Shown here: positions 1,789 to 64,000 of the stretch, piece by piece | Layout: the number at the start of each line of letters is the position of its first letter | Position numbering within the stretch: the stretch's first letter is position 1 | Assembly: GCA_013140985.1 (NCBI GenBank) | Contig: JABFRU010000021.1 | Coordinates: 1-64,000, forward strand | From: Chitinophagaceae bacterium | GTDB lineage: Bacteria; Bacteroidota; Bacteroidia; Chitinophagales; Chitinophagaceae | DNA: 64,000 nt | Direction: 5' to 3' | Notes under the pieces: model-generated | Seen by the model: only the letters and a program-made list of their open reading frames with translations | Told to the model about the DNA's origin: nothing | The model's database searches: none | Translations under genes and position numbers: made by a program

Positions 1789-1861
1789 TGGTGTGGGGCG
1801 GGATCGAACCGCCGACACAAGGATTTTCAGTCCTTTGCTCTACCGACTGAGCTACCGCACC
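1789..1861 (-). tRNA. tRNA-Phe (anticodon GAA)
   Basis: Reverse complement GGTGCGGTAGCTCAGTCGGTAGAGCAAAGGACTGAAAATCCTTGTGTCGGCGGTTCGATCCCGCCCCACACCA folds as a cloverleaf; anticodon loop CTGAAAA. Confidence 0.95.
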
Positions 1862-2009
1862 ATTCCTGAAACACATCAACTCCGGTAAGTGGAAGCCTAT
1901 CCTTCGCTTTTGTGCTTCGGGGCTGCAAATATAGGCAGGTTTGCCTTAAATCCGAAGCCTAATGGCGCCTTAATTAGTACTTGAGATTTGTTCTTTGGAA
2001 TTTTGAACC

Positions 2010-4292
2010 CTACATCCCATATTCACTCAAAAACTTGATCCGCATGATCTTGAGCTGTTCCCAGTTGAAGTTGAACTCGGACAGTTCTTCCTGGGCCACC
2101 TGTAAAGAAGATGTTTCGCAGCCTTTGAAATATTCCATGATCTCTACCTGGTCGTCTTCATCAAGCATTTCATCGATAGCATAAGTGAGGTTGAGTTTCG
2201 TGCCGCTGGCTGCAATGGTCTCCATCTCTTCGAGCATCTCATCCATCCGCCAGCCTTTGTTCTTTGCTATCGTTTCGAGAGAAACTTTTTTATCGGTGTT
2301 CTGTATGATATAAACCTTGTTGCCGCTTTTGTTTACCACACTCTTCATCACAAAATCATCGGGGCGTTCAATATTATTCTCTTCCACATACCTGGCTATC
2401 AGCTCCACAAATGGACGACCATATTTGATCGCTTTGCCCTTGCTCACTCCCTGGCATTTTTCCAGGCCTTCCATGGTAATGGGATAGAAGGTGGCCATAT
2501 CCTGCAGGGATGCTTCGAGGAAAATAACAAAGGGCGGAAGGTTTTTTTTCCTGGCTTCTTTTTGCCGAAGCTCCATCAGCATGGCAATTAGTTTTTCATC
2601 CAGCGCAACGCCGCCGGTTGTTTCTGGTCCTTCTTCATCATCGGCATTGGCATCATCATAGGTATTGTTCAATACCATCTTGAATGATTTCGGTTTTTTC
2701 AAAAACGCTTCGCCGGCTTTGGTGAATTTCAACACCCCATATTCTTCAATATCTTTTTTCAGCAGGCCGCCGAGCAATAATTGGCGGATAAGTGAATTCC
2801 AGAAATGATTGTCCCTGTCATTGCCGCTGGCAAATGCATTGAGTCCTTCATGACGGAACATGGTTATCTGCGGCGTTAGTTTACCGCTGACGATCTGCAC
2901 CACATATTCTGTCGCAAACTGTTCGTTCAGCTCCTGTATCGCTTTCAAAACAAGAACAGCTTCGTCTTTTGCTTCTGTTTTTTCTTTCGGATGTTTACAG
3001 TTATCGCATTGCCCGCAATTTTCTTTGGTATATTCTTCTCCGAAATAACTCATCAGCACTTTGCGGCGGCAAACACCTGTCTCCGCAAAACCAACTGTCT
3101 CATTAATGAGCTGCGCTCCTACTTCTCTTTCGCTAAGCGGTTTGTCCCGCATCAAATGTTCCAGCTTGCTTACGTCTTTATGCGAATAATACAAAACGCA
3201 TTTTCCTTCGAGGCCATCACGGCCGGCACGGCCGGTTTCCTGGTAATAATTCTCAATTGATTTGGGAATATTATAATGGATAACGAAACGGATATCCGGT
3301 TTGTCAATTCCCATTCCGAATGCGATCGTTGCACAAATGACCTGCACTTCTTCATTGAGGAACTGGTCCTGTCTTTCCGATCTTAATTTACTATCAAGCC
3401 CTGCATGATAAGCCACGGCTTTGATACCATTGGCATTTAAAATATCGGCCAGCTCTTCTGTTGTTTTTCTATTGAGTGTATAAATGATGCCGCTTTTATT
3501 TTTCATTCCTTTTATAAAGCGGACAATATTCTCATCTGTTTGCGCCTTTTTTATTTTCGGCAATACTTCATAATAGAGATTGGCCCGGTTGAACGATGAA
3601 ATAAAAACATTGGGCTCTCTCAGATCGAGGTTCTTGATGATATCGCTTTGCACTTTGGGTGTTGCCGTCGCTGTCAATGCAATAACGGGTGCGTCGGGAT
3701 TTATTTGTATCATCATTTCCCGCAGGCGGCGATATTCAGGACGGAAATCATGTCCCCATTCAGAGATACAATGTGCCTCATCCACTGCGAAGAAAGAAAT
3801 TTTCAGATCGGAAAAGAATTCAAGGTTTTCCTGCTTGGTCATTGTTTCAGGAGCTACATATAGCATTTTTGTTTTGCCTGTCAGCAGGTCATCATGTACT
3901 TCTTTTATTTCTTTTTTATTCAATGTAGAATTTAAAAAATGGGCCACTTCATCATTGCTGCTGTAACCACGGACAAGGTCCACCTGGTTTTTCATCAAAG
4001 CGATCAACGGTGAAACGATCAATGCAACGCCTTCGCTGATCATGGCCGGGAGCTGGTAGCATAAACTTTTTCCTCCGCCCGTTGGCATGATGACGAATGT
4101 ATCACGACCGGCCATCAATGATTCAATTGCTTTTTCCTGTGTGCCTTTGAATTTATCGAAGCCAAAATAGTCCTGCAATGACTTGTGGAGATCAAATCTT
4201 TTTTTAGGAGAAGTTGTATCCTTACTCTTTACGGTTTTTCCCCCGGCGGGCTGAGCTTTTTTTGCTGCCGGTTTCTTTGTTGTTGTTCCCAT
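2010..4292 (-). CDS. recQ: ATP-dependent DNA helicase RecQ
   Basis: Walker A MPTGGGKSLCYQLPA, DEAH box, TGRAGRDG, Zn-binding CRRKVLMSYFGE...CGQCDNC, C-terminal HRDC. Confidence 0.95.
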   Translation of the reverse strand: MGTTTKKPAAKKAQPAGGKTVKSKDTTSPKKRFDLHKSLQDYFGFDKFKGTQEKAIESLMAGRDTFVIMPTGGGKSLCYQLPAMISEGVALIVSPLIALMKNQVDLVRGYSSNDEVAHFLNSTLNKKEIKEVHDDLLTGKTKMLYVAPETMTKQENLEFFSDLKISFFAVDEAHCISEWGHDFRPEYRRLREMMIQINPDAPVIALTATATPKVQSDIIKNLDLREPNVFISSFNRANLYYEVLPKIKKAQTDENIVRFIKGMKNKSGIIYTLNRKTTEELADILNANGIKAVAYHAGLDSKLRSERQDQFLNEEVQVICATIAFGMGIDKPDIRFVIHYNIPKSIENYYQETGRAGRDGLEGKCVLYYSHKDVSKLEHLMRDKPLSEREVGAQLINETVGFAETGVCRRKVLMSYFGEEYTKENCGQCDNCKHPKEKTEAKDEAVLVLKAIQELNEQFATEYVVQIVSGKLTPQITMFRHEGLNAFASGNDRDNHFWNSLIRQLLLGGLLKKDIEEYGVLKFTKAGEAFLKKPKSFKMVLNNTYDDANADDEEGPETTGGVALDEKLIAMLMELRQKEARKKNLPPFVIFLEASLQDMATFYPITMEGLEKCQGVSKGKAIKYGRPFVELIARYVEENNIERPDDFVMKSVVNKSGNKVYIIQNTDKKVSLETIAKNKGWRMDEMLEEMETIAASGTKLNLTYAIDEMLDEDDQVEIMEYFKGCETSSLQVAQEELSEFNFNWEQLKIMRIKFLSEYGM

Positions 4293-20194: not shown

Positions 20195-21205
20195 TTACAA
20201 CCCCGCCCTCTTACTTATCTCCAGCATCCTGTCCATTGGTTTCTTTGCTGCCAGTCTCAGTTCTTCATCCATCGTTATCTCCGGTAGTTCATATTCCATG
20301 CAGAGGTAGAGTTTCTCCAGTGTATTGCGTTTCATATGCGGGCAATCATTGCAGGCACAACTGTTATCGGGAGGAGCGGGAATAAATGTTTTGTCGGGAG
20401 AATATTTCATCATCTGGTGAAGGATACCGGTCTCTGTAGCGACGATATATTCCTGCGTGGTATCTGATTGAGTGAATTTGAGTAACCCTGTTGTACTGCC
20501 AATAAAATCAGCCATGCGAAGAATAGGATCCTCGCATTCAGGATGTGCAATGAGTTTTGCATTGGGGTGACGGACTTTCAACTTCGTTATTCTTTCCAGG
20601 CTGAAGATCTCATGCACCATGCAGGCGCCATTCCATAGCAGCATATTTCTTCCCGTCACTTTGTTGATATAAGCGCCGAGGTTCTTATCAGGTGCAAAAA
20701 TGATCGGCTGTTCTTTTGGAAAACTTTCAACAATGATTTTTGCATTGCTGCTGGTGCAGATCACATCACTCAATGCTTTGATGCCGGCGCTGCAGTTGAT
20801 GTAACTGACGACCACATGATCGGGATGCTGCTCTTTGAATTTTTTGAATAAGGGCGGCGGGCAACTATCGCTCAGTGAACAGCCGGCTTTGAGGTCGGGG
20901 ATAACAACTTTTTTTGCGGGGTTTAGAATTTTTGCTGTCTCTGCCATGAAATGCACACCTGCAAAAACGATCATATCGGCCGTTGTTTTTTCTGCCTGCT
21001 GCGCCAAACCTAAACTATCCCCGATATAATCGGCCACATCCTGTATGTCCGGCTCCTGGTAGTAGTGCGCCAGCAGGATCGCATTCTTTTCTTTTTTCAA
21101 CCGTTCTATTTCGGCAAATAGGTCCAGTTGTGGGTCGAGGTCAATGTCAAGAAAACCGTTTTTGTAAATTTCTGCTTTGGCGGTATGGAAAGTTGCTGTG
21201 TTCAT
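20195..21205 (-). CDS. nadA: Quinolinate synthase
   Basis: [41 protein letters not shown]; conserved cysteines. Confidence 0.96.
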
Positions 21206-21299
21206 CGTTTGTTATCCTGAGCTTGTAGAAGGGTTAAACGTTGGGCAATATTCCGCTAAGCAAACCGGATTTTCAAAAATCATTTTTTTCGACCTGCGT

Positions 21300-21670
21300 T
21301 AATACAATAGTATTAATAATAGATATTTTATAAAAAAGAAACTATTATTATTACAGCTGTGGATTAGTGGAAAAGATACTTCGCAAAATTACTTGTTTGT
21401 TTTAATTCACATTTAAAACAGGGTAATCCACATAAACTATTGTTTACAGTGGCTGATCACAGGCTTCTTTGCACAGGATTGTGGATTACGAAAAAGAATA
21501 AGTTTTTATAAGAAGCCGGGTGGATAAGTGCGGGTCAATATAGAATAAGTACCATTATAAAAACACCTGGCCGAAATGATAACCCCTTTAAAAAAAGTAG
21601 AAGCCAAGAATCCAGTTTCATATCCACATTTCACAACAGGATTATTCACAGAAAAAGGAAGCAATCCACA
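21300..21670. other. Candidate chromosomal replication origin (oriC)
   Basis: AT-rich tract 21300-21355; DnaA-box-like TGTGGATTA (21358, 21480), TAATCCACA (21424), TTATTCACA perfect (21642), one-mismatch sites at 21403, 21519, 21620; on the - strand TAATCCACA-GCTG-TAATAATAATAG. Confidence 0.65.
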
Positions 21671-21810
21671 AAGTGATGGGGAGAAAAACGTTGAAAGGAA
21701 TAGTCATATTGGTCACATAAGTCAAATTAATTACACCTCGATCGACCACTATGAGCAAAAAAAAGGCATAGATCAGAAAGTGTTACTTTTAAAGCCCCAA
21801 ATTTTATAGT

Positions 21811-23976
21811 ATGAGATACCTGAAGATTTTCCTCGTTACAGTATTAATATTTGTAAGAACAGCGGCCCGGGCCGATGAAGGCATGTGGCTTCCTTTGTTA
21901 TTAAGCAAGCTGAATGAAAAACAGATGAAGAGCCTGGGGATGAAGATCAGCGCAAAGGATATATATAGTATTAACAGCGGCAGCCTGAAAGATGCGATCG
22001 TAAGTTTCGGCGGCTTTTGTACTGGCGAGATCATTTCCAATAAAGGCCTTGTACTTACTAATCACCATTGTGGATTTGATGCAGTGCAAAATCATTCTAC
22101 ACTTGAACATAACTATATAAGAGATGGATTTTGGGCAAAGAATTACAGCGAAGAACTAAAAAACCCAACCCTGTTTGCCACATTTATAGTACGGATAGAA
22201 GATGTATCCACCCTCGCATTAAGTGGTGTTACCACAAATATGAGCGAAAGCGAAAGACAATCTACCATTGATAAGAATATCAACCTGATCAGGACCAATG
22301 CAAAAAAAGAGAAATACCAGGATAGTTTTGTAAGAGGGTTCTTTGAGAACAATCAATATTATTTATTCGTTACAGAAACATATAAAGATGTAAGATTGGT
22401 AGGTGCGCCGCCTTCTTCTATCGGCAATTTTGGAAAAGACACTGACAACTGGATGTGGCCACGTCATACCGGCGATTTTTCCATGTTCCGCATTTATGCA
22501 GGTAAGGATAATAAGCCGGCCGAATATTCGCCGGAGAATGTACCATATGTTCCCAAAAAATCATTGTCTATTTCATTAGATGGTGTTGCAGAAAATGATT
22601 TTACCATGGTATTTGGTTTCCCGGGAAGAACGATGGAGTATTTATATTCAGCCGCTGTGGAGCAGATCATGACAGTAAATGATCCGGCAAAAATTGCTAT
22701 AAGAGATAAGGCGTTGAATGTTATTGATGGTTTCATGAGAAAAGATGAGCAGATCAAAATTCAGTATGCGGCCAAATATGCAAGCATTCAAAATTCCTAT
22801 AAAAAATGGCAGGGTGAAGTGATGGGACTCACCAGCACCAATGCGGTGGGTAAAAAGAGAACGTATGAAGCAGAGTTTCAAAAAAGGGTTGATGCAAATC
22901 CTCAATGGAAAGAACAATATGGTTCTTTGCTGAGACATCTCGACGATGCATATTCGGCACTAAAACCCCACGGCTATGCAAGAGATTATTATACGGAGAT
23001 AGTAAGCAGAATAGAATTATTTACCATTGCATCTCAAATGAATTCACTGGTCGCTGCTTATGAAAAAGAAGGGGAAAAAGGATATAAAACAAGACTTGAC
23101 CAGGTAAAGAATATCCTGTCCGGTATTTATGAAGAATACAATGCGGCGGTGGATCAAAAACTATTTGAAACACTGATGGCTATGTATATAAAGGACCAGG
23201 AAGCCAGATATGTTTCGCCGCTGCTCAAAGAATTTTTAAATGACGCCGAAGATTTTAATAAACTGGCTGTAAAAATATTTGATGCCACCAATCTTGATGA
23301 TGCCGGCGCAACAATGAAATGGCTCGATAAACCAGCTGCAGAAGCAGTAGTTGATATAAAGAAGCAGTTGGTGGTTCAGCTTCAGCAGGATCTTTTAAAA
23401 ACATACCAGGCACAAGTGCAGGGAAAGCTGAATGAAATACAAAGCAGTATCAATAAGCTGCAGCGAACCTATATGCAGGCACAGATGGATGTGTTCAAAG
23501 AGAAAACATTTTATCCCGATGCCAACAGCACATTGCGGGTCACTTATGGTAATGTGAAAGGATATAATCCAAGAGACGGAGTGCAATATGGTTTCTACAC
23601 ATACCTCGATGGTGTAATGGAAAAATATAAGCCCGGAGATTATGAATTTGATGTTCCGGAAAAATTAAGATCATTATATAATGCCAAAGATTTTGGTCAA
23701 TATGGAAGCAACGGCAAAATGCCGGTTTGCTTTATTGCCCGCAATCATACTACCGGGGGCAATTCCGGCAGCCCGGCGCTGGATGCATACGGAAACCTGA
23801 TCGGCCTCAACTTCGACCGGGTATGGGAGGGAACCATGAGCGATATTAATTACGACCCCTCCATTTGCCGGAACATCATGGTGGATATCCGCTATGTTTT
23901 ATTCATTGTTGACAAATTTGCCGGTGCCAGCCACCTGGTGAAGGAGATGAAGCTTGTGCATCCGAAAAAGAAGTAG
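21811..23976 (+). CDS. S46 family dipeptidyl-peptidase (DPP11-like)
   Basis: GFCTGEIISNKGLVLTNHHCGF; TGGNSGSPALDAYGNLIGLNFDRVWEG. Confidence 0.93.
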   Translation: MRYLKIFLVTVLIFVRTAARADEGMWLPLLLSKLNEKQMKSLGMKISAKDIYSINSGSLKDAIVSFGGFCTGEIISNKGLVLTNHHCGFDAVQNHSTLEHNYIRDGFWAKNYSEELKNPTLFATFIVRIEDVSTLALSGVTTNMSESERQSTIDKNINLIRTNAKKEKYQDSFVRGFFENNQYYLFVTETYKDVRLVGAPPSSIGNFGKDTDNWMWPRHTGDFSMFRIYAGKDNKPAEYSPENVPYVPKKSLSISLDGVAENDFTMVFGFPGRTMEYLYSAAVEQIMTVNDPAKIAIRDKALNVIDGFMRKDEQIKIQYAAKYASIQNSYKKWQGEVMGLTSTNAVGKKRTYEAEFQKRVDANPQWKEQYGSLLRHLDDAYSALKPHGYARDYYTEIVSRIELFTIASQMNSLVAAYEKEGEKGYKTRLDQVKNILSGIYEEYNAAVDQKLFETLMAMYIKDQEARYVSPLLKEFLNDAEDFNKLAVKIFDATNLDDAGATMKWLDKPAAEAVVDIKKQLVVQLQQDLLKTYQAQVQGKLNEIQSSINKLQRTYMQAQMDVFKEKTFYPDANSTLRVTYGNVKGYNPRDGVQYGFYTYLDGVMEKYKPGDYEFDVPEKLRSLYNAKDFGQYGSNGKMPVCFIARNHTTGGNSGSPALDAYGNLIGLNFDRVWEGTMSDINYDPSICRNIMVDIRYVLFIVDKFAGASHLVKEMKLVHPKKK

Positions 23977-24143: not shown

Positions 24144-26315
24144 ATGTCTATTATTCAAACTATCAGGGATAAAGGAGCAAAGATCTCTGTAGCACTAATT
24201 GCACTGGCACTGGTTGGATTTATTTTGACCGATTATTTTTCCGGTAAGGGCAAGAATGTTTTTTCAGGAGGATCATCAGTAGTGGGTAGTGTGAACGGAA
24301 AAAAAATTTCCTATGATGCATTTAAGGCACAAGTAGATGATAATATAAGCAGGACCGAAAATATGTACAGGCAGCAAGGTATGCAGCCACCTCCCGCATC
24401 AAGGCTTACAAAAGATGCAGTTGACCAGGCCTGGAACCAGGAAGTAAGCCGCTTGCTTCTGCGTGGAGAATTTGATCGCATCGGAATGCGGATAGGTAAA
24501 AAAGAAAGAGGTGATATGTTATATGGTTCCAATGCACCGGACTTCATAAAAAAGGCAGGCACTGATGAGAATACAGGTATTTATGACCCCATAAGAGCCA
24601 AGCAGCAGGTTGATCAAATGCTGAAAAACAGGCAAACACCACAGGAACAAAAAGACGAATTCAATAATTATCTAAACAGCATGGATGATTACCGGATGCA
24701 GGAAAAATATACTTCGCTTTTTTCCAATAGCCTCAATTATCCCCGCTGGTTCATTGAGAAACAGGTAAACGATAATGCACAGGTGGCAAAAATATCAATG
24801 GTAAAAATGTTGTACACGGATTCATCATTTGTTGACAGTACCATACAGATCACTGATAAGGAAATAGCTGAATATATCGGCAAGCGCAAAGACCTGTTCA
24901 AACAGGAAACATCAAGAAGCATACATTTTGTATCGTTCAGCGCATTGCCAACGAAAGAAGATTCTGCAGAAGCAAAAAAAGCGTTGCTTGACCTGAAACC
25001 AGAATTTGATACAGCTACCGAATTCTCCTCTTTTGCTGCCCGTGATGTTGAGATGCAGTCTCCAGATATCTTTTCAACGCCAGCGCAGTTACCGCCTGTT
25101 GGTAAAGACAGCATTGTTCGGCTCGGAAAAAATGGAGTATATGGTCCTTATCTGGAAGGAGGGGCCTATGTAATGGCGAAATTGTTCGACACAAAGATTT
25201 TACCCGACTCTGTAAAATGCCGCCACGTATTGGTCGGCACAGATCCGCAGAGCGGTGGCGTGGATGATAGTACTGCATCCCGCCGGATTGATAGTATTAA
25301 AAGAGCGATAGATGGCGGCGCTACATGGGAAGCAATGGCGATGAGGTATAACTCCGATGATACAAAAAACACCAAAGGAGAAATGACTTTCTCTGCTGCC
25401 CAAATACAATCGGTGAATTTTGCAAAAGAGTTCGGTCAGTTCATTTTATGGGATGGAAAACCCGGGGATAAGAAAGTGGTGAAAACATCTTTTGGATATC
25501 ACTATATCGAAATACTTTCTTTTATCAAACCCGGAACACAATATAAAGTAGCGTATCTCGCCAAAGGGGTGTTGGCGAGTGAGCAAACCGACAAAGACGC
25601 ACAACAGCTGGCCAATGATTTCTTTGGCCAGGCAAAGGATATGAAAACCTTTGATGCGGCCGTTGAAAAATTGCTAAAGCCTTCCGGCGGAGCCAAAGCA
25701 ATTGCGTCAAACATTCGCCCATTGGATGCAATGGTAAATGCAACTGGCGCCACACCAATGACATCCCGTTCTTTTGTAACGAATATCTATAAAGCAAAGT
25801 TGGGTGAAGTAATGGCGCCCGAGAAAGTGGAAAGTAATTATGTGGTAGCAATTGTTACGGAAGTGAACGAGGAGGGAACCATGCCGGTTGCAAAAGCCAG
25901 GCCCGGCGTTGAGTTTGAAATTCGGAAAAAGAAAAAGGCGGCAATCATCAGGCAAAAGATCGGCACTGTTACTACACTTGAAGATGCAGCAGCAAAGCTT
26001 GGAAAGCAGATCGAAACGATTGACAGCCTCCGGATGGAGGCGGGCAGTTCTTCTATTGTTGGATATGAACCAAGAGTTATAGGAGCGGCTTTCAATCCGG
26101 CCAATAAAGGAAAAGTTGTAACTGAAATTCTGGAGGGATCAAGCGGCGTATATGTGATCCGGGTAGAAAACACAGGCGCCACCCCATCAACTGAAGGAAG
26201 TGTGGAGGATCAAAGAAAAGCAAAATACCAGTCGGGAAGAGGACAACAGGTAGGCCCAATGGAAGGATTGAGAAAAGCAGCGACAATAAAAGATAAGCGA
26301 GCCAATAGGTTTTAA
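24144..26315 (+). CDS. PpiD/SurA-like peptidylprolyl isomerase
   Basis: N-terminal TM anchor, SurA_N-like region and PPIC-like domain. Confidence 0.9.
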   Translation: MSIIQTIRDKGAKISVALIALALVGFILTDYFSGKGKNVFSGGSSVVGSVNGKKISYDAFKAQVDDNISRTENMYRQQGMQPPPASRLTKDAVDQAWNQEVSRLLLRGEFDRIGMRIGKKERGDMLYGSNAPDFIKKAGTDENTGIYDPIRAKQQVDQMLKNRQTPQEQKDEFNNYLNSMDDYRMQEKYTSLFSNSLNYPRWFIEKQVNDNAQVAKISMVKMLYTDSSFVDSTIQITDKEIAEYIGKRKDLFKQETSRSIHFVSFSALPTKEDSAEAKKALLDLKPEFDTATEFSSFAARDVEMQSPDIFSTPAQLPPVGKDSIVRLGKNGVYGPYLEGGAYVMAKLFDTKILPDSVKCRHVLVGTDPQSGGVDDSTASRRIDSIKRAIDGGATWEAMAMRYNSDDTKNTKGEMTFSAAQIQSVNFAKEFGQFILWDGKPGDKKVVKTSFGYHYIEILSFIKPGTQYKVAYLAKGVLASEQTDKDAQQLANDFFGQAKDMKTFDAAVEKLLKPSGGAKAIASNIRPLDAMVNATGATPMTSRSFVTNIYKAKLGEVMAPEKVESNYVVAIVTEVNEEGTMPVAKARPGVEFEIRKKKKAAIIRQKIGTVTTLEDAAAKLGKQIETIDSLRMEAGSSSIVGYEPRVIGAAFNPANKGKVVTEILEGSSGVYVIRVENTGATPSTEGSVEDQRKAKYQSGRGQQVGPMEGLRKAATIKDKRANRF

Positions 26316-62046: not shown

Positions 62047-62580
62047 ATGACTGATATTGCTTCGGCGGTGAATGAGAACCGCAAAGCCGGAATACGGCAA
62101 AAGAAACATAGTCTTAAAATAGATATGACGCCGATGGTTGATCTTGGTTTTTTGCTGATCAGTTTTTTTGTGATCACAACAGAAATGAGCAGGCCAAGGG
62201 CAATGAAGCTTTTTATGCCGCATGATGGAAAGCCAACGCCATCAAAAGAATCAACAACGATCACTATTCTTACCGGCGCTGATGATAAACTGTTTTATTA
62301 TTACGGCGAAGAAAAAAATGCCGGCACTAAAAACCCTATTATACAAACTTCATGGGATGAAGAAACAGGTATTGGAAAAGTTCTCAGTGATAAACAAGCA
62401 GGACTTGATCAAACAAAAGCCGGAAGGGATGAAATGGTAGTGATCATTAAGCCAGGTAAGCGATCGAACTATAAAAACATGGTGGATATATTGGATGAAA
62501 TGCTCATTCATCGGATAACCCGGTATGCGATCGTGGACCCGGGAGCTATTGACGCGGCCTTCCTGGAAAAAGCCGAGTGA
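62047..62580 (+). CDS. ExbD/TolR family biopolymer transport protein
   Basis: KIDMTPMVDLGFLLISFFVITTEMSRP. Confidence 0.9.
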   Translation: MTDIASAVNENRKAGIRQKKHSLKIDMTPMVDLGFLLISFFVITTEMSRPRAMKLFMPHDGKPTPSKESTTITILTGADDKLFYYYGEEKNAGTKNPIIQTSWDEETGIGKVLSDKQAGLDQTKAGRDEMVVIIKPGKRSNYKNMVDILDEMLIHRITRYAIVDPGAIDAAFLEKAE

Positions 62581-62694
62581 TCCTTTTTTATCTTCAACAA
62601 ATTTTTTTATAAGCCTTTTTTCAGGCAAATAGCTGAAAAAGAAGGCTTTTGTTTTTGAGCTGAGTCCCAAGTCCCCGAGTTACTGTAAAAAATA

Positions 62695-62737
62695 TGGTAC
62701 TTTGTGTTGCATAGTACCAAACATCACCCTATCTTTG
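62695..62737 (+). promoter_or_regulatory. Inverted-repeat operator plus TTG-N20-TATCTTTG promoter of padR
   Basis: TGGTACT-N11-AGTACCA (62695-62719); TTG 62707-62709; TATCTTTG 62730-62737. Confidence 0.6.
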
Positions 62738-62763
62738 TTCCATAATTGATAAATTGAAAGGAA

Positions 62764-63114
62764 ATGAATATTGAAAATACACAGAGCCAGATGCGGAAGG
62801 GGATATTGGAGTTTTGCATTCTTTCCATCATTCGTCGTGGCGAAGCCTACCCGAGTGATATCGTTGAAGAAATGAAAGCGGCCAATCTCCAGATACTGGA
62901 AGGCACTTTATATCCCCTGCTTACCCGTTTGAAAAATGCAGAGATGCTTACATACCGGTGGGTAGAAAGTAATTCCGGTCCGCCGAGAAAATATTTCTCT
63001 CTGACAGAAAAGGGCCTGAGTTTTTATAAAGAGCTTGAACAAACCTGGAATGAACTTTCTAACGGAGTGAATGCACTTACCAGTAAAAAAGCAGATGAAC
63101 CATTGAATAATTAA
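62764..63114 (+). CDS. PadR family transcriptional regulator
   Basis: QMRKGILEFCILSIIRRGEAYPSDIVEEM...LEGTLYPLLTRLKNAEMLTYRW. Confidence 0.93.
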   Translation: MNIENTQSQMRKGILEFCILSIIRRGEAYPSDIVEEMKAANLQILEGTLYPLLTRLKNAEMLTYRWVESNSGPPRKYFSLTEKGLSFYKELEQTWNELSNGVNALTSKKADEPLNN

Positions 63115-63144
63115 TCAACCAGTTTCAACCAAATAATTACAACG

Positions 63145-64000
63145 ATGAAAAAGATCATTAATATAAACTTAAGCGGCAGGGTGATACCGATAGAAGATTC
63201 GGCATACGAAAAGCTGCAGGCTTATATAGAAAGCTTACGCCGCTATTTTTCCAACGAAGAAAGTCGTGAGGAAATCATCAACGATATTGAAAGCCGTATT
63301 GCAGAATTGTTGCATGAGAAAATTCGCAAAGGTACATCAGCTGCAACGGATGCTGATGTGGATGAGATCATCGCCTCCATGGGTACCATTGAAGATTTTG
63401 AAGCAGCAGAAAAAGAAAATATCGCATCATCGGCAACAAGTTCTTCAACATCCGGACAAAGCCAGCAACAGCAATATACTTACTCCGAAAAAAAATCAAA
63501 AGGCAGGTTATACCGGGATTCCAATGATAAATTCATTGGCGGCGTATGCAGCGGCATTGCAAACTACCTGAACCTTGATACATCTATTGTAAGAATATTA
63601 TTTGCCATAATAACTTTTGGCGGATTCGGGCTCGGTATTCTTGCTTATATCATTTTATGGATAGTGTTGCCGCCAAAAGACCTGGAGGGTTCATATAGAA
63701 AAAGATTATACCGCAATCCTGACAACAGGATCATAGGAGGTGTGGCAGGTGGTCTTGCTGCTTATTTTGGCAGAAACGCAAACACTATCCGGCTGATATT
63801 TGCCGCACCGATCCTGTTGAGCATAATTATCCGAATCATTAACAGGATGTCATGGGACAATGATTTCGATCTCGCATTTAATATTGGTTTTGGTTCATTG
63901 ACAGGTGTATTTGTTTTAACCTATATCATATTATGGATCGTATTGCCCGAAGCAAACAGTGATTATGAGAAAATGGAAATGCGGGGAGAAAAGGTTGATG
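63145..64000 (+). CDS. PspC domain protein, tandem PspC domains, truncated by window end
   Basis: Manual translation MKKIININLSGRVIPIEDSAYEKLQAYI...; GRLYRDSNDKFIGGVCSGIANYL and KRLYRNPDNRIIGGVAGGLAAYF. Confidence 0.9.
   Translation, partial: MKKIININLSGRVIPIEDSAYEKLQAYIESLRRYFSNEESREEIINDIESRIAELLHEKIRKGTSAATDADVDEIIASMGTIEDFEAAEKENIASSATSSSTSGQSQQQQYTYSEKKSKGRLYRDSNDKFIGGVCSGIANYLNLDTSIVRILFAIITFGGFGLGILAYIILWIVLPPKDLEGSYRKRLYRNPDNRIIGGVAGGLAAYFGRNANTIRLIFAAPILLSIIIRIINRMSWDNDFDLAFNIGFGSLTGVFVLTYIILWIVLPEANSDYEKMEMRGEKVD

Follow-up and report, generated by a model that had tools for sequence, protein, structure and literature searches.

A probable chromosomal replication origin beside nadA in a Chitinophagaceae bacterium, with a family-conserved unwinding module of reversed triplet polarity

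The window analysed here is a stretch of 64,000 nucleotides (contig C51:1-64000) from a 3.86-Mb genome in 83 contigs, which is placed in the Chitinophagaceae by the relatives of its NadA protein. Two divergent genes enclose the region of interest. The quinolinate synthase gene nadA (20195-21205, minus strand; Pfam NadA, 5.4e-122) is the conserved neighbour of the putative origin in most of the family, and the other flank is an S46 peptidase gene (21811-23976, plus strand; Pfam Peptidase_S46, 9.3e-233). The intergenic gap at 21206-21810, from the nadA start at 21205 to the S46 start at 21811, has the 605 bp that an earlier note on this DNA had given it and is the candidate oriC. A PpiD-like gene (24144-26315) comes after the S46 peptidase gene, which separates it from the candidate origin; in the loci of Chitinophaga, Niastella and Hydrotalea the PpiD-like gene flanks the gap directly. 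The far flank of the gap differs among relatives, being an S46 gene, a PpiD-like gene or others. The window holds no dnaA, as had been remarked before; the dnaA of this genome sits on another contig and encodes a complete DnaA with a helix-turn-helix domain IV.

The gap contains a cluster of DnaA boxes. Seven box-like sites had been claimed, and the cluster stands while the count does not, as eight sites lie within one mismatch of T(T/A)AT(C/T)CACA and a weaker ninth accompanies them. The box TAATCCACA occurs at 21358-21366 (minus), where it adjoins the unwinding tract, and matching sequences are found again at 21424-21432 (plus) and 21480-21488 (minus). The box TAATTCACA at 21403-21411 (plus) is a further sequence match, and TTATTCACA at 21642-21650 (plus) occupies a position, about 415-460 bp from nadA, that many relatives share. 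Three sites carry one mismatch: TTATCCACC at 21519-21527 (minus), ATATCCACA at 21620-21628 (plus) and CAATCCACA at 21662-21670 (plus). The ninth site, TTTTCCACT at 21366-21374 (minus), is a second tandem box that overlaps the first by 1 bp and for which the consensus of the relatives is TTWTCCACN. Five of the eight TWATYCACA sites in the window fall in the 605-bp gap and three in the other 63.4 kb (Poisson P about 1.6e-10). Across the 3.86-Mb genome TWATCCACA is not more frequent than its reversed control (48 vs 59 sites), and the gap is the only place in the genome with three such sites within 150 bp. A box cluster beyond chance, which is one criterion for an oriC, is thus present in the gap.

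Beside the first box lies what appears to be an unwinding module. On the minus strand, positions 21342-21366 read TAATCCACA-GCTG-TAATAATAATAG, letter for letter as in the earlier note. The module consists of the box, the GC-rich spacer GCTG (21354-21357, minus; [GC]CC[GC] in the consensus of the relatives) and a proximal array TAATAATAATAG, four TAR triplets on the box strand (21342-21353, minus) with counterparts in 51 of 53 relatives. The AT-rich tract reported next to this box was borne out: the stretch at 21286-21345 is 80% AT and is the presumed duplex-unwinding element, so that the adjacent AT-rich tract expected of an oriC is found on the evidence of base composition. A distal array, TAATAATAG at 21314-21322 (plus), lies 19 bp beyond the proximal one, and its polarity relative to the box is that of published DnaA-trios; 16 of 52 relatives have it in strict form, vs 2.4% of shuffled tails. 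The two TAR arrays, at 21314-21322 (plus) and 21342-21353 (minus), are the facing arms of an inverted repeat with a T-run/TATAAAA core (CTTTTTTATAAAA-like) between them, and the strict form of this inverted pair recurs in about a third of the relatives. When compared with the rules for a basal unwinding system (BUS), which is made up of box, spacer and DnaA-trio, the locus has a box with at most two mismatches followed by a tandem second box (TAATCCACA and TTTTCCACT), and GCTG agrees with a spacer of at most 16 bp that is typically 4 bp long and GC-rich.

The arrangement is conserved beside nadA. Within 700 bp upstream of nadA at 54 loci, the present one included, TWATYCACA was counted 108 times; the reversed pattern was counted there 5 times, and TWATYCACA itself twice in the segment at 800-1500 bp. 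Of 53 distinct relatives, nearly all of them Chitinophagaceae, 51 have on the nadA-sense strand a box followed after 2-6 bp by three or more TAR triplets; the pattern was absent from all 52 control segments. The relatives share a consensus in which TTWTCCACN overlaps NAATYCACA, followed by the spacer [GC]CC[GC] and then TAATARTARTAR. The first count for this consensus was biased by sites having been picked by TAR, and it was repeated with the TAR condition removed. The module TYCACANNNNTARTARTAR is present in 135 of 199 family genomes, and in 83 of the 102 genomes with both the module and nadA listed it lies 39-169 bp upstream of nadA, on the strand of that gene. A second genomic match to the module, at C1:239001, with no strict box in its vicinity, was taken as a chance match.

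The proximity to nadA raises the question of whether the gap, instead of being an origin, serves to control nadA or the S46 gene, for example as a promoter regulated by DnaA. Most of the boxes are indeed found a short way upstream of nadA, with the module on the sense strand of that gene. However, in two genera (g2 and g33) the module is found about 0.3-0.46 Mb from nadA, accompanied by three to four copies of TTATCCACA within about 1.8 kb (G001, 62154-63984; G104, 1819-3648; G032, 1081401-1082843; G196, 497060-498502). Additionally, a genome of the same genus as the window (G157; 2.0 Mb, rated 100% complete) has no NadA match and retains a module match at C1:451431, which stands outside any TTATCCACA cluster in a genome with eight TTATCCACA in all. 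Because module and boxes travel together apart from nadA in the two genera, and the module match persists where a nadA match is missing, the module behaves like an origin and not like a promoter or control element of nadA. A search of the gap for Rfam families and known RNA elements found none, and the GC skew switches at this locus in two relatives, as described below. A control region is therefore a very improbable explanation of the gap.

The earlier note had named a GC-skew minimum as the check on an origin at this site. Since the 83-contig assembly of the window's genome is unsuited to whole-chromosome skew, the check was run on relatives, using 40 evenly spaced 20-kb samples from each; it held at the locus in two of them (G121 and G023) and was weak, borderline or uninformative in four others. 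In the first two, both single-contig assemblies, the minimum coincides with the nadA-side locus to about 0.13 Mb and the signal exceeds the 99% permutation level. The breakpoint in G121 lies at 3.09-3.23 Mb and the module at 3.223 Mb; the best breakpoint in G023 is 0.68-0.77 Mb, with 0.60-0.68 Mb nearly equal, and the module is at 0.640 Mb. The skew of G005 is weak, with a best breakpoint at 2.80-3.06 Mb and a next-best one at 3.693-3.713 Mb that contains the module (3.711 Mb). G087 shows no significant skew (p 0.32), and its fit points away from the module. For G019 and G118 a strand-biased octamer served as proxy instead: the former is borderline (p 0.053), with breakpoints at 2.14-2.65 Mb that bracket the module at 2.376 Mb, and the latter gave no skew signal. 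The window's own contig has no sign change in skew, with only 21 kb to the left of the site.

DnaA-box clusters occur outside origins, and the skew is not decisive in four of the six genomes. It could therefore be argued that oriC lies elsewhere, for example near dnaA, and that the boxes in the gap titrate DnaA in the manner of datA/DARS-type sites. The position of dnaA speaks against this. The gene is at 1.45 Mb in G121 (C1:1450207), 2.54 Mb in G023 (C1:2539354) and 1.93 Mb in G005; in G121 and G023 it is ~1.4-1.8 Mb distant from the locus with the skew minimum, and of the two fitted points the terminus is nearer to it than the origin. In the window's own genome, the 20 kb fetched around dnaA (within about 10 kb of the gene) contain no strict boxes. 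Furthermore, a module of the unwinding type is not expected of a titration site, and we give this explanation very little credence.

These results indicate that the gap at 21206-21810 is very probably the chromosomal replication origin of this Chitinophagaceae bacterium, as the earlier note had proposed. The reading is supported by the box cluster that is unique in the genome and kept in relatives, the family-wide module beside nadA, the skew minima at the orthologous place in two relatives, a remote dnaA devoid of strict boxes, and the module with boxes away from nadA in two genera. Our best call is a genuine oriC with a variant unwinding module. This assigns an origin at the sequence level in a family where the usual rule, to look next to dnaA, fails, and it can be used in the ordering of draft genomes, in methods that derive growth rate from coverage and in the building of replicating vectors. 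Among the papers searched, none dealt with a Chitinophagaceae oriC or with an oriC beside nadA. The origin is ordinary in kind, but it supplies a new rule for locating oriC in this family and displays the trio repeat in an unexplained, reversed form.

At this location and conserved module, which are seen in the genomes themselves, we infer the steps of initiation by analogy with B. subtilis, H. pylori and E. coli. Made from its gene on another contig, DnaA would bind both the clustered boxes at 21403-21670 and the two overlapping tandem boxes at 21358-21374. From the tandem boxes a DnaA oligomer would reach past the spacer of 4 bp into the AT-rich tract (about 21310-21353) and open it, and this is also where the helicases would be loaded.

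The BUS of B. subtilis oriC (PMC6669920, PMC8287927, PMC10201434) has the same tandem overlapping boxes, 4-bp GC-rich spacer, triplet repeat, AT-rich tract and distal box cluster, and its overlapping boxes 6 and 7 are a precedent for the box overlap. It differs in that the TAR triplets are here on the box strand and not on its complement, and in that the present origin is not beside dnaA. The oriC2 of H. pylori (PMC8235120) likewise has an unspaced box pair, a GC-rich spacer and a five-triplet tract followed by an AT-rich region, but its box strand reads 5'-YTR-3' where the present one reads 5'-TAR-3'. In T. maritima (PMC10316083) a triplet tract adjoins the box and a second array lies further out, as here, whereas the box sequence differs and both arrays share one strand. 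The E. coli oriC, on the 13-mer side of the R1 box, is also remote from dnaA and has TAATAA on the box strand (complement TTATTA); unlike the present module, it has a spacer of 14 bp between R1 and TAATAA and lacks a regular four-triplet array.

The earlier note had seen in the tract the known layout of box, GC-rich spacer and DnaA-trio. The boxes, their overlap, the spacer and the position agree with that layout. The strand of the TAR repeats does not: they share it with the box, opposite to what is found in H. pylori and B. subtilis. In B. subtilis the strand complementary to the trios reads CTACTATTACTTCTACTA, and C. difficile has CTACTACTATTACTACTA. TAG-type trios of B. subtilis are listed in PMC10316083. 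In H. pylori the trios are 5'-YTR-3' downstream of the box pair, and reversal of their polarity blocked unwinding (PMC8235120); we infer that the box there is read on the same strand, as the bottom-strand guanines G3, G4 and G8 of ts1 (TCATTCCAT) would fit only in this orientation. The known systems carry TAG-type trios on the complement of the box, whereas the Chitinophagaceae carry them on the box strand in a family-conserved manner.

In the window, the complement of the box strand (plus, 21343-21354) reads TAT TAT TAT TAC. This agrees with the loose BUS rule (PMC8287927), which asks that the complement of the box strand carry three or more 3'-NAN-5' triplets. The stringent 3'-[G/A]A[T/A]-5' consensus is absent from the complement next to the spacer, where the triplets end in a pyrimidine, and an array of consensus polarity, TAATAATAG, is reached only 19 bp beyond the proximal one. 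Most probably DnaA captures the same strand as in the known systems, the one complementary to the box strand, on which it would here read 5'-TAY-3' triplets as well as the distal TAATAATAG array.

Alternatively, DnaA on overlapping boxes of ordinary orientation might capture the TAR repeats of the box strand, or both strands, as a polarity-inverted DnaA-trio; capture of both is conceivable because a second array, in inverted orientation, borders the AT-rich core. On the box strand, triplets 1-3 have a purine as third base in 155 of 156 cases, with no purine condition imposed, which is the published trio consensus read on that strand, and YTR arrays of published polarity follow the box at only 2 of 53 loci. 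We nevertheless consider an inverted trio unlikely. Apart from the block to unwinding in H. pylori, the same box orientation here should presumably fix the direction of the filament, and the distal array of published polarity exists in the window and is enriched in relatives. The R1-box strand of E. coli also has TAATAA, and E. coli DnaA binds its T-rich complement. If an inverted trio were true, the strand that is first captured and first given a helicase would differ from that in B. subtilis and H. pylori. The conserved reversed repeat offers a concrete way to test the strand choice of DnaA and the universality of trio polarity.

The exact module was also searched for across the class. It was found in 56 of 289 genomes; because these matches were scattered and those of the reversed-pattern control similarly common, the exact form looks like a feature of the family. 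In three Sphingobacteriaceae loci (L047, L063 and L075) the space between divergent nadA and nadB genes contains DnaA boxes and a degenerate CTAATAANNAATAAG-like tract, and from these loci an origin beside nadA may extend beyond the Chitinophagaceae.
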